Shown: positions 4,438-7,173 of the stretch, in pieces
Numbering within the stretch: the stretch's first letter is position 1
Layout: each line of letters begins with the position of its first letter
NCBI GenBank assembly: GCA_002401495.1
Contig: NVTG01000065.1
Coordinates: 1-7,173, forward strand
DNA length: 7,173 nucleotides
From: Candidatus Kaiserbacteria bacterium
GTDB lineage: Bacteria; Patescibacteria; Paceibacteria; UBA9973; UBA2100
Direction of reading: 5' to 3'
Translations under genes and position numbers: made by a program
Notes under the pieces: model-generated
The model's database searches: none
Seen by the model: only the letters and a program-made list of their open reading frames with translations
Told to the model about the DNA's origin: nothing

Positions 4438-4455
4438 AGTTCCATATGAGGAACT
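4438..4455. promoter_or_regulatory. Inverted repeat over the start codon of the Ada-like domain gene
   Basis: AGTTCC-ATATGA-GGAACT is a perfect 6-base inverted repeat around 6 bases and contains the ATG at 4446. It lies between the divergent rpmA and the plus-strand gene. It could bind a dimeric regulator, or form an mRNA hairpin exposing the start codon in the loop. This is a pattern call only. Confidence 0.3.
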
Positions 4456-4817
4456 GGTGGCAAAGTATACGCGAACGTGTCGTTCAAATCAAGGGAAACA
4501 CCCCCAAAATGGGACAGGATGTTTTTATCGTGCTCGTACTAATGTTAGTTGGACTAGGTGCCTTTGGATTAGGGAGACTCTCCATGATGGAAGAACAACG
4601 TCCTGCAATCAGAATGTTTGAACAAACAATGAAAAACGTTGATCCAATTAGTATGGGTGGACTAGTTGTAGCATCCCGCAATGGGAGTAAGTATCATTTT
4701 CCGTGGTGTTCGGGTGCACAGAGAATGAGTGAGGTAAATAAGGTGTGGTTTAAGAGTATTGACGAGGCAAAGAAAGCAGGCTTCACAGCGGCAGGGAATT
4801 GTAAGGGGTTGAAGTAA
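4446..4817 (+). CDS. Membrane-tethered protein with Ada-like zinc-binding domain, function unknown
   Basis: The protein has 123 residues. A short amphipathic, basic N-terminus (MRNWWQSIRERVVQIKG) precedes one membrane segment at about 25-44 ending GLGRLS. A linker of about 30 residues follows, then a small C-terminal domain from VVASRNGSKYHFPWCSGA (74-91) through VWFKSIDEAKKAGFTAAGNC to the end. That domain has the shape of the Ada metal-binding family (YHxPxC, then the xFxSxxEAxxAGY region, then Cys), but only two cysteines, C88 and C119, plus H84 are visible where Ada uses four cysteines. I therefore infer a modified or lost metal site. The domain is probably outside the membrane; proteins of this layout seem common in Parcubacteria. 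The chosen start keeps the amphipathic helix; M22 is a later alternative without better support. No Shine-Dalgarno site is visible. The end overlaps the -35 region of the next promoter. Confidence 0.8.
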   Translation: MRNWWQSIRERVVQIKGNTPKMGQDVFIVLVLMLVGLGAFGLGRLSMMEEQRPAIRMFEQTMKNVDPISMGGLVVASRNGSKYHFPWCSGAQRMSEVNKVWFKSIDEAKKAGFTAAGNCKGLK

Positions 4818-5445: not shown

Positions 5446-6186
5446 ATGGAATTTTTTACACTTGTACCTCTAGCTATTGGAATCGCATTCGCTGTAATTC
5501 GACAAGTTAACCAATACGAACGAGGTGTTATGTTCACAATGGGTAAGTTTACTGGAATTAAACAACCAGGATGGAGAATAGTAATTCCTGTTTTTCAAAG
5601 CATGATGAAGGTAGACATGCGAACAAAAGCGGTTGATGTTCCTCAACAACAAGCTATTACAAAAGACAACATCGCAGTTGGAGTTAACGCTGTTATCTAC
5701 TACAAGGTAAGTGATGCTTCTAACGCAATATTGAAAGTTGAAGATTTCTTCTTTGCAGTAAGTCAGTTAGCACAAACGACTATGCGTAATGCTGTTGGTG
5801 AAGTTGAACTTGATGAACTTCTTTCAGGAAGAGAAAAGATTTCAGAAAAGATTCGATCAGTAGTAGACGTTGCCAGCGATGACTGGGGGATTAAAGTACA
5901 AAACGTTGAGCTTAAAGATATTATCCTTCCTGAGAACATGGAACGAACAATTGCAAAACAAGCTGAAGCTGAGCGTGAGAAGCGTGCGGTTATCATTAAG
6001 GCTGAAGGAGAAGTAATTTCAGCTGATAACATGGCAAAGGCAGCTAACGTACTCTCATCAGCACCCGGTGCACTACACCTTAGAACATTGCAGTCACTTA
6101 ACGATCTTTCTTCAGATCAGAGCAACACAGTAGTGTTTGCAATGCCTATAGAGGTCTTGAGAGCGTTTGAGAAGTTCGGGAAATAA
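5446..6186 (+). CDS. Slipin / stomatin-like SPFH (band 7) membrane protein
   Basis: This 246-residue protein of the stomatin-prohibitin-flotillin-HflC/K family forms large ring or cage oligomers that organise membrane domains and regulate proteases. An N-terminal membrane segment (about 1-18) is followed directly by the SPFH domain: VNQYERGVMFTMGKF, QPGWRIVIPVFQ, the MRTKAVDVPQQQAITKDN strand region and AVIYYKVSD. The stretch about 150-180 (WGIKVQNVELKDIILPE) leads into the charged helix with the signature KQAEAEREKRAVIIKAEGE, a coiled coil used for oligomerisation. Length matches bacterial slipins. I chose ATG 5446 over 5419 because the longer version would overlap the end of the exonuclease gene and would contain the promoter-like AT run. 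The usual NfeD partner is not adjacent. CtpA, another envelope protease-related factor, lies nearby, but a link is only speculation. Confidence 0.93.
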   Translation: MEFFTLVPLAIGIAFAVIRQVNQYERGVMFTMGKFTGIKQPGWRIVIPVFQSMMKVDMRTKAVDVPQQQAITKDNIAVGVNAVIYYKVSDASNAILKVEDFFFAVSQLAQTTMRNAVGEVELDELLSGREKISEKIRSVVDVASDDWGIKVQNVELKDIILPENMERTIAKQAEAEREKRAVIIKAEGEVISADNMAKAANVLSSAPGALHLRTLQSLNDLSSDQSNTVVFAMPIEVLRAFEKFGK

Positions 6187-6203
6187 GTTGGACACATAAG
6201 TTT

Positions 6204-6232
6204 AAAAGCGCACCTTGAATGAGGTGCGTTTT
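6204..6232. terminator. Hairpin of leader copy 1, terminator-like
   Basis: CGCACCT (6209-6215) pairs with AGGTGCG (6222-6228) around TGAATG; a G-T wobble and three A-T pairs extend the stem, with a T4 run on the 3' side. It lies 18 bases after the slipin stop, so it fits an intrinsic terminator. Because it also recurs before the next gene, it may instead or in addition be a 5' control element. Confidence 0.7.
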
Positions 6233-6256
6233 GGGTGTAGAACTATAGTAGGCAAT

Positions 6257-6262
6257 AGGGAG
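6257..6262 (+). promoter_or_regulatory. Shine-Dalgarno site of the first secreted-protein gene
   Basis: AGGGAG followed by seven bases and the ATG at 6270. It is a strong site in a window whose core genes lack one, and it fixes the start codon. Confidence 0.8.
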
Positions 6263-6269
6263 AAAGCAA

Positions 6270-6674
6270 ATGAAAAAAGGCCTACTAATCATGCTTTTAA
6301 GTTTTTTGGGGACAGGCGCGTATTCATACGGCATTGCGCCGTTGAAGGAGCCGCCTCCAGAGATAGTCCCGCATGAGGGACATATCGGGTACATCTCTGA
6401 TGTTCCAGCGTGTAAAGTTGAGTATCATTCTAGATCTATACTCGAAAACCATCTGAATCTAGGGTTTTACTCCGCAAGAGCACTGCTCAATATGCTCATT
6501 CTTAAAGAGTCTTGCAAGTATGTAGAAGGTAGTGCTTACGTAAGTAGAATTTTCTTCTCAATAAATATTTCAGTTCCCGACTATGCTTCACCTTTGACGC
6601 TCTTTCTGGTTCGTATGATTGTGGACGAGGAAGAGTGGTTCGGTATTTTAGGAGCTTGGCAATTCCAAAAATAA
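6270..6674 (+). CDS. Small secreted protein with two cysteines, function unknown (first of tandem pair)
   Basis: I do not recognise the family. The 134-residue protein starts MKKGLLIMLLSFLGTGAYS, a typical Sec signal peptide with cleavage likely after AYS near residue 19-20; the residue after is not Cys, so it is not an evident lipoprotein. The mature part begins proline-rich (KEPPPEIVPHEG), then has two cysteines 34 positions apart (ACKVEY and ESCKYVE), which could form a disulfide outside the cell. The motif YVSRI follows the second cysteine, then hydrophobic beta-like stretches, and the end EWFGILGAWQFQK. The downstream gene encodes a protein with the same order of features, suggesting distant paralogy. 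It has a strong Shine-Dalgarno site and a hairpin-bearing leader, and is followed by its own terminator. Confidence 0.8.
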   Translation: MKKGLLIMLLSFLGTGAYSYGIAPLKEPPPEIVPHEGHIGYISDVPACKVEYHSRSILENHLNLGFYSARALLNMLILKESCKYVEGSAYVSRIFFSINISVPDYASPLTLFLVRMIVDEEEWFGILGAWQFQK

Positions 6675-6676
6675 GT

Positions 6677-6704
6677 CGTCGACAGAGAAATCTGTCGGCG
6701 GTTT
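6677..6704 (+). terminator. Hairpin with GAAA tetraloop after the first secreted-protein gene
   Basis: CGTCGACAG (6677-6685) pairs with CTGTCGGCG (6692-6700), with one G-T wobble; an inner A-T pair closes a GAAA loop of GNRA type. A short T3 run and an AT-rich stretch follow. It begins three bases after the stop codon. The weak T-tract makes it a modest intrinsic terminator. Confidence 0.65.
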
Positions 6705-6727
6705 AATAATTACGACACATAAGTTTA

Positions 6728-6755
6728 AAAACGCACCTTGAATGAGGTGCGTTTT
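6728..6755. terminator. Hairpin of leader copy 2, terminator-like
   Basis: AAAACGCACCT (6728-6738) pairs perfectly over 11 bases with AGGTGCGTTTT (6745-6755) around TGAATG. A-tract and T-tract flank the GC part, so it could terminate on either strand. It lies only 27 bases after another terminator-like hairpin and 39 bases before the next start codon. Confidence 0.7.
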
Positions 6756-6781
6756 GGGTGTAGAAATAGGGTAGGTAATAG

Positions 6782-6787
6782 AAAGGG
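6782..6787 (+). promoter_or_regulatory. Shine-Dalgarno site of the second secreted-protein gene
   Basis: AAAGGG followed by seven bases and the ATG at 6795, the same spacing as at 6257-6262. It fixes the start codon. Confidence 0.75.
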
Positions 6788-6794
6788 TAGAACC

Positions 6795-7173
6795 ATGATA
6801 CGACTAATAAAGATCGCATTTTTTCTTTCCTTCCTGGGTGTTCCAGGCATGGCAGAAGAAGGTGTTACTGTACCCATGCGCGTGCTCGGAGAATTCAACT
6901 GGTGCGAGTCGCAATTCGACGGCGAGCTTATAATGGACGCACGCAAAGCTGGGAGCACAACTCGTAAATGGACTCTGGAGGCAAATTGTTTGATTGCTGC
7001 ACCGGATGAAGGGCCAATGTACATCTATGTAACGCGCATTGTGCGAGTAGACGATTGGTGTCTAGGAAGTGAAGGAGACATCCGCGAGGAGGTGGTCTTG
7101 GTTGAGTTTAAGAGAGGTTCCGGAATCTTGTATTACGGTACGTTTCCGGCTCACTTAGCTCCAGAAGATCAAT
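6795..7173 (+). CDS. Small secreted protein with three visible cysteines, cut by window edge (second of tandem pair)
   Basis: I do not recognise the family. I translated 126 codons without a stop before the right edge. MIRLIKIAFFLSFLGVPGMA is a Sec signal peptide with likely cleavage after GMA near residue 20; the next residues are EEG, so no lipobox. The mature part has cysteines in FNWCES, EANCLI and DDWCLG. YVTRI follows the second cysteine and RGSGILYYGTF comes near the visible end; these parallel YVSRI and FGILGAW of the preceding protein, so I infer distant paralogy. Base composition differs: 6841-7080 is about 51% GC by hand count, against about 40% in a sampled line of the slipin gene, and codons such as CGC, GTG and GAC are frequent. 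This may mean recent transfer or a different expression class. Confidence 0.75.
   Translation, partial: MIRLIKIAFFLSFLGVPGMAEEGVTVPMRVLGEFNWCESQFDGELIMDARKAGSTTRKWTLEANCLIAAPDEGPMYIYVTRIVRVDDWCLGSEGDIREEVVLVEFKRGSGILYYGTFPAHLAPEDQ

Follow-up and report, generated by a model that had tools for sequence, protein, structure and literature searches.

The 7,173-nucleotide contig, analyzed here over its whole length as the window, contained in order cysS (partial, minus strand), corA (minus strand), an S41 peptidase gene, rplI, and rpmA (minus strand), followed by genes for a small protein with an Ada-like match, an exonuclease, and a slipin (SPFH), and by two small open reading frames, ORF1 and ORF2. 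The Pfam scan took in seven of these ten genes, and cysS, rplI, and rpmA were named from reading of their translations. The small protein at 4446-4817 appeared membrane-anchored by eye, and its C-terminal part gave a weak Ada metal-binding-like match that fell short of the Pfam cut-off (E 0.0048). Among the best 120 of 8000 scored proteins, the closest slipin relative shared 94% identity, those at 89% and 86% belonged to Candidatus Kaiserbacteria, and one at 80% to Candidatus Pacebacteria. The contig is therefore regarded as Kaiserbacteria-like, because the named slipin relatives at 89% and 86% carry that assignment.

Duplicated hairpin block in front of ORF1 and ORF2

The spacers preceding ORF1 and ORF2 each contained one copy of a 52-nt block (Table 1). 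Direct comparison gave 51/52 identity, the sole mismatch being G6208 versus A6731, with a step of 523 bp between the copies, and repeat finding placed them in a wider frame of 77 nt at 90% (6182-6258 and 6705-6781). The best ungapped 52-nt self-match was 51 in the window and 30-33 in 20 first-order Markov windows. The near-identical hairpin leader that an earlier note on this DNA had reported before two genes is thus real and non-random. The flanks of the copies agreed at 9/20 positions over 20 nt on the left and at 12/16 over 16 nt on the right. On the right side, the likeness faded with no sharp stop, and ungapped identity was 3-9/20 per 20-nt step from 70 nt past the block start onwards.

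Table 1. Features of the window from the slipin gene to the contig end.
Feature	Position	Strand	Details or basis
Slipin / SPFH (Band_7) gene, upstream of copy 1	5446..6186	+	Pfam PF01145, E 3.4e-40
Block copy 1 (52 nt)	6191..6242	+	Outer helix 6192-6195/6235-6238; hairpin 6205-6216/6221-6232
Leader 1, Shine-Dalgarno-like GGGAG, 27 nt to ATG	6243..6269	+	Sequence reading
ORF1, orphan of 134 aa, hydrophobic stretch at N-terminus (probable signal peptide)	6270..6674	+	
Unbroken 15-bp hairpin (three pairs G-U), GAAA loop, from ORF1 stop codon	6672..6705	+	RNA fold
Block copy 2 (52 nt)	6714..6765	+	Outer helix 6715-6718/6758-6761; hairpin 6728-6739/6744-6755
Leader 2, Shine-Dalgarno-like AAGGG, 29 nt to ATG	6766..6794	+	Sequence reading
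ORF2, orphan truncated at contig end (126 aa seen), hydrophobic stretch at N-terminus	6795..7173	+	

RNA folding predicted the same structure for both copies, a 12-bp hairpin with the loop GAAU enclosed by a 4-bp outer helix. The minimum free energy of the 53-nt pieces was -19 kcal/mol each (z = -4.46 and -4.69), and none of 200 shuffles folded as well for either copy. Both copies were thus predicted to form a stable GC-rich hairpin, as intrinsic terminators do, and the single difference between them changes a G-U to an A-U pair, so that the stem pairing is kept. A known structured RNA family was dropped as an identity for the block, since no Rfam 15 covariance model matched either copy at E up to 5. 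Two mini-ORFs (6219-6248 and 6742-6774; 9 and 10 codons, the first 8 identical) begin in the hairpin loops and encode MRCVLGVEL and MRCVLGVEIG. They stop ahead of the Shine-Dalgarno site, and no Shine-Dalgarno-like sequence was seen by eye in front of them.

The distance from the block to the ATG was nearly constant in the two units (27 and 29 nt), whereas that from the upstream stop codon to the block varied (4 and 39 nt). In addition, ORF1 had a 3' hairpin of its own; the fold of 6670-6715 reached -18.9 kcal/mol (z -5.70), and the hairpin was followed by a weak T tract (T-tract score 2.82). It is the probable terminator of ORF1, and because it is strong, copy 2 need not serve that gene as terminator. 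This hairpin and copy 2 stand as two strong hairpins in tandem. In the fold of 6180-6269, after the slipin gene, copy 1 supplied the sole strong hairpin. By spacing, flank similarity, and the 3' hairpin of ORF1, the block is tied to the downstream genes, with two copies only, in agreement with the link that the earlier note had drawn.

Products of ORF1 and ORF2

The proteins encoded by ORF1 and ORF2 are probably secreted, as judged from hydropathy and from reading of the sequence; 11-mer mean hydropathy near the N-terminus was 2.42 for ORF1 and 2.35 for ORF2 (residue 4). Their mutual similarity was not significant. The best BLASTP E-value of this single pair was 0.22, and in 12 alignment settings, computed without residues 1-20, between 41 and 308 of 1000 shuffles scored at least as high. 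With free end gaps, the score was reached by 189 of 2000 shuffles at full length and by 855 of 2000 for the mature part. Homology between the two is thus not detectable by BLASTP or shuffle tests. Hints of kinship below significance comprised two cysteines in like order, the motifs YVSRI and YVTRI, and three C-terminal strands in poor models. The earlier description of a leader better conserved than its coding parts, with downstream proteins sharing just scattered motifs, therefore agrees with 51/52 identity in the block and no significant protein similarity. Its picture of a repeated leader before secreted-protein genes stood as to the repeat and needs correcting on two points: the window end truncates ORF2, and the right side of the repeat fades.

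Neither ORF1 nor ORF2 matched a Pfam or PHROGs model. ORF1 had one NCBIfam match (E 0.015; 14.2 bits versus a cut-off of 500), and ORF2 had none. Among solved structures, ORF1 found none at E up to 1, and ORF2 found two laccase chains at E 0.38. Single-sequence AlphaFold2 models had mean pLDDT values of 40.4 and 41.6 and were therefore too poor for a fold search; as a hint only, both end in three predicted strands.

In searches of 5.8 billion proteins, which cover lengths from 0.55 to 1.75 times that of the query (an upper bound of 220 aa for ORF2), each of the two matched solely its own identical entry. Identical slipin and ORF1 proteins are recorded on a 16,703-bp contig, and ORF2 is recorded only on a contig of 7,173 bp, the length of the window. 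Either the 16,703-bp contig ends after ORF1, or other sequence follows ORF1 there, or full-length ORF2 exceeds 220 aa. The third-position GC content was 0.47 for ORF2, above the range of eight neighbouring genes (0.26-0.44), and 0.42 for ORF1, within it.

Occurrence of the block and its hairpin core elsewhere

We searched for further copies in a species-genome collection (84,980 species, one genome each, the host's own genome not among them) and in IMG/VR viral contigs. In the species-genome collection, a flank pattern demanding 12 exact bases on each side, which diverged copies would escape, found no true further copy. Its sole match, in an Aminicenantes MAG, fell within an open frame of 204 aa that was ferritin-like by reading of the translation. 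In IMG/VR, there were no matches for the flank pattern, the stem, or the right half of the block. Looser flanks gave one match, inside a coding frame, and the left half of the block gave 10, with only 7-11 of 35 positions alike in the remainder of the block; nine of these 10 lay in open frames of 160-179 aa and one in a frame of 52 aa. Judged from these contexts, the species-genome match and the 11 IMG/VR matches are coincidences. Scans of IMG/VR for proteins returned nine pattern-matching stretches for ORF2 and six for the slipin, none confirmed as a relative, and BLAST of 6150-7173 against plasmids and phages gave no match at E 1e-5. The search of other genomes that the earlier note had proposed thus yielded no further unit in these two collections with the patterns used, and its cassette family rests on two copies. 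Literature titles and opening lines of abstracts described no such element in Patescibacteria, although this search says little, as part of the papers do not mention the group.

The hairpin core of the block was found more widely. Five plasmid and three phage records matched a query of 81 nt (E up to 10), none over 80% of its length, and the core was the matched part in four of the five plasmid records, two of these four being from one Lactobacillus species. Inspection covered four of the eight records (H1, H4, H6, and H7, rather than H2, H3, H5, and H8), of which H1 carries no annotation. In all three inspected plasmids, out of the four matching the core, the core sits at or past the end of a gene: it begins 19 nt past the ribH stop in a Lactobacillus plasmid and 89 nt past the rdgC stop in a second, and it overlaps the final 17 nt of a regulator gene in the third. 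In two of the three phage records, which both represent phage Kumao, the match is to 19 nt of the core and falls within an annotated gene. The exact core pattern was also present in two IMG/VR contigs, in one lying 34 nt beyond a 149-aa open frame yet also spanned by a 62-aa frame of the opposite strand, and in the other within a 253-aa open frame. The earlier note had named an ordinary terminator as the case that would overturn its view. This case is somewhat strengthened by the recurrence of the core in unrelated plasmids, where all three inspected have it at or past the end of a gene, although other core matches lie inside genes.

Possible roles and origin of the block

We consider it most probable, at about 0.48 and hence tentatively, that the block is a terminator-type hairpin with a short leader that marks the boundary of a small-gene unit and has been duplicated in this role. 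Such a unit would consist of the hairpin, a ribosome-binding leader, a secreted orphan protein, and its own 3' hairpin, with the block as its 5' boundary. Copy 1 would also close the slipin gene, its hairpin starting 18 nt past the stop codon. Copy 2 may have arisen by duplication or gene conversion of the spacer when a further small gene was added in tandem, presumably through ordinary recombination between repeats and with no dedicated recombinase involved. The hairpin would separate transcription of the neighbouring genes, and each small gene would be translated from its own Shine-Dalgarno site. If the block is only a duplicated terminator or leader, the locus would be ordinary, save for small secreted orphan genes standing in tandem behind copied spacers.

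The layout of the block supports this reading, as it resembles intrinsic (Rho-independent) terminators, including those of rplI and rpmA in the window, in its order of A tract, GC stem, and T tract; the 12-bp stem has a GC core, and the single difference between the copies preserves it. Its position past the slipin stop resembles that of the like core past ribH in the Lactobacillus plasmid. The T tract after the stem, TTTTGGGTGT, scored 3.29 in both copies, between the 95th (2.44) and 99th (3.37) percentiles of window positions, and 3.30 on the other strand. However, the T run is short and passes into GGG (TTTTGGG), the score is below those of rplI (4.33) and rpmA (4.74), and a consensus terminator scan of the window did not list the block. 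Conservation and duplication also extend to the flanks beyond the hairpin (14 nt on the left, 10 nt on the right), for which a bare terminator has no need. Furthermore, the spacing favours the downstream gene, and some core matches lie away from gene ends.

The main rival, although unlikely, is that the block is a cis-acting leader RNA co-regulating at least two secreted-protein genes, as an attenuator or a protein- or ligand-binding 5' UTR hairpin. The near-constant distance to the ATG beside a variable one to the upstream stop, the conserved unpaired stretches around the stem, the pairing-preserving difference, and the tailing off of similarity toward the start codon (12/16 right of the block) are all consistent with such a leader. 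Against this, the blocks lack an Rfam match at E up to 5, the flank pattern found no true further copy in the species-genome collection, leaving only two, and 51/52 identity exceeds what two independently maintained leaders would need. The inverted repeat with 11-base half-sites (AAAACGCACCT-6-AGGTGCGTTTT in copy 2) upstream of two genes of like kind could also be a palindromic DNA operator for a dimeric repressor common to two co-regulated genes. We regard this as improbable, as the identity reaches past the palindrome, the promoter scan placed no site at the block (10 sites in the window versus 16.8 in shuffles), no regulator gene was recognized in the window, and a like core occurs at gene ends in unrelated bacteria. 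A promoter with a -35 TTGAAT in the loop was dropped, as it reached 8/12 by eye and the scan threshold is 9. It is highly improbable that a short mobile or REP-like palindrome was inserted twice by chance between genes: the block is indeed a short intergenic hairpin repeat, but near-equal distances to both start codons are unexpected for random insertion, no transposase was recognized in the window, and there are two copies.

Instead of a boundary, the block might be a recombination or attachment site at which a recombinase inserts, loses, or swaps units made up of a block and a secreted-protein gene, as circles or in tandem. Such a cassette system is possible but unproven, and we consider it quite unlikely. 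It is suggested by the joining of a fixed 52-nt block, at a 523-bp step, to coding parts without detectable similarity, by the orphan status of both ORFs, and by the high third-position GC of ORF2, that of ORF1 being within the neighbours' range. The presence of slipin and ORF1 on the 16,703-bp contig without a record of ORF2 fits different genes after ORF1 and also a contig end. On the other side, no attC box pair spans the block, no recombinase was recognized in the window, and the patterns used found only the two copies. The cassette family of a fixed leader joined to variable secreted proteins, as the earlier note had put it, is thus not supported by any further unit. Still more specific, and a long shot, is a Kaiserbacteria-type (Patescibacteria) cassette array in an ultra-small bacterium, in which the fixed 52-nt hairpin leader would serve as the recombination site for the exchange of orphan secreted proteins; this would be diversification of an integron-like or Vpma-like kind without attC sites. 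If more units lay beyond the contig end, these reduced, probably host-attached bacteria could exchange surface or secreted proteins.

Integron arrays resemble the locus in having single small ORFs of no known family and near-identical palindromic repeats at about 0.5 kb. The attC site, as given in the cited part of PMC3053210, is a palindrome of 57 to 141 bp between RYYYAAC and GTTRRRY core sites, and no such pair spans either block. The window has one pair 40-150 bp apart (6096-6193), which reaches just 3 nt into copy 1 and encloses neither of the hairpins. An integron attC was therefore rejected, the core boxes being absent around the blocks, and no integrase gene was recognized among the ten window genes.

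The vpma/vsp loci of Mycoplasma, with their proposed Xer1 sites, offer another comparison. In Mycoplasma agalactiae, according to the cited part of PMC2268961, each Vpma start is preceded by a proposed recombination site of 72 nt; the region for the signal peptide is conserved, and the locus also carries a recombinase gene. Here, by contrast, the N-termini of ORF1 and ORF2 are unlike each other, with the 3-9/20 identity per step given above. No tyrosine recombinase was recognized within the 7,173 bases, the contig ending in ORF2. What the two have in common is that genes for divergent surface or secreted proteins are preceded by a conserved stretch of 5' untranslated sequence, here at 51/52 identity in both units seen. 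Relative to the start codon, this stretch occupies -72 to -1 in vpma, according to the same part of that source, and -79 to -28 and -81 to -30 in the two blocks.
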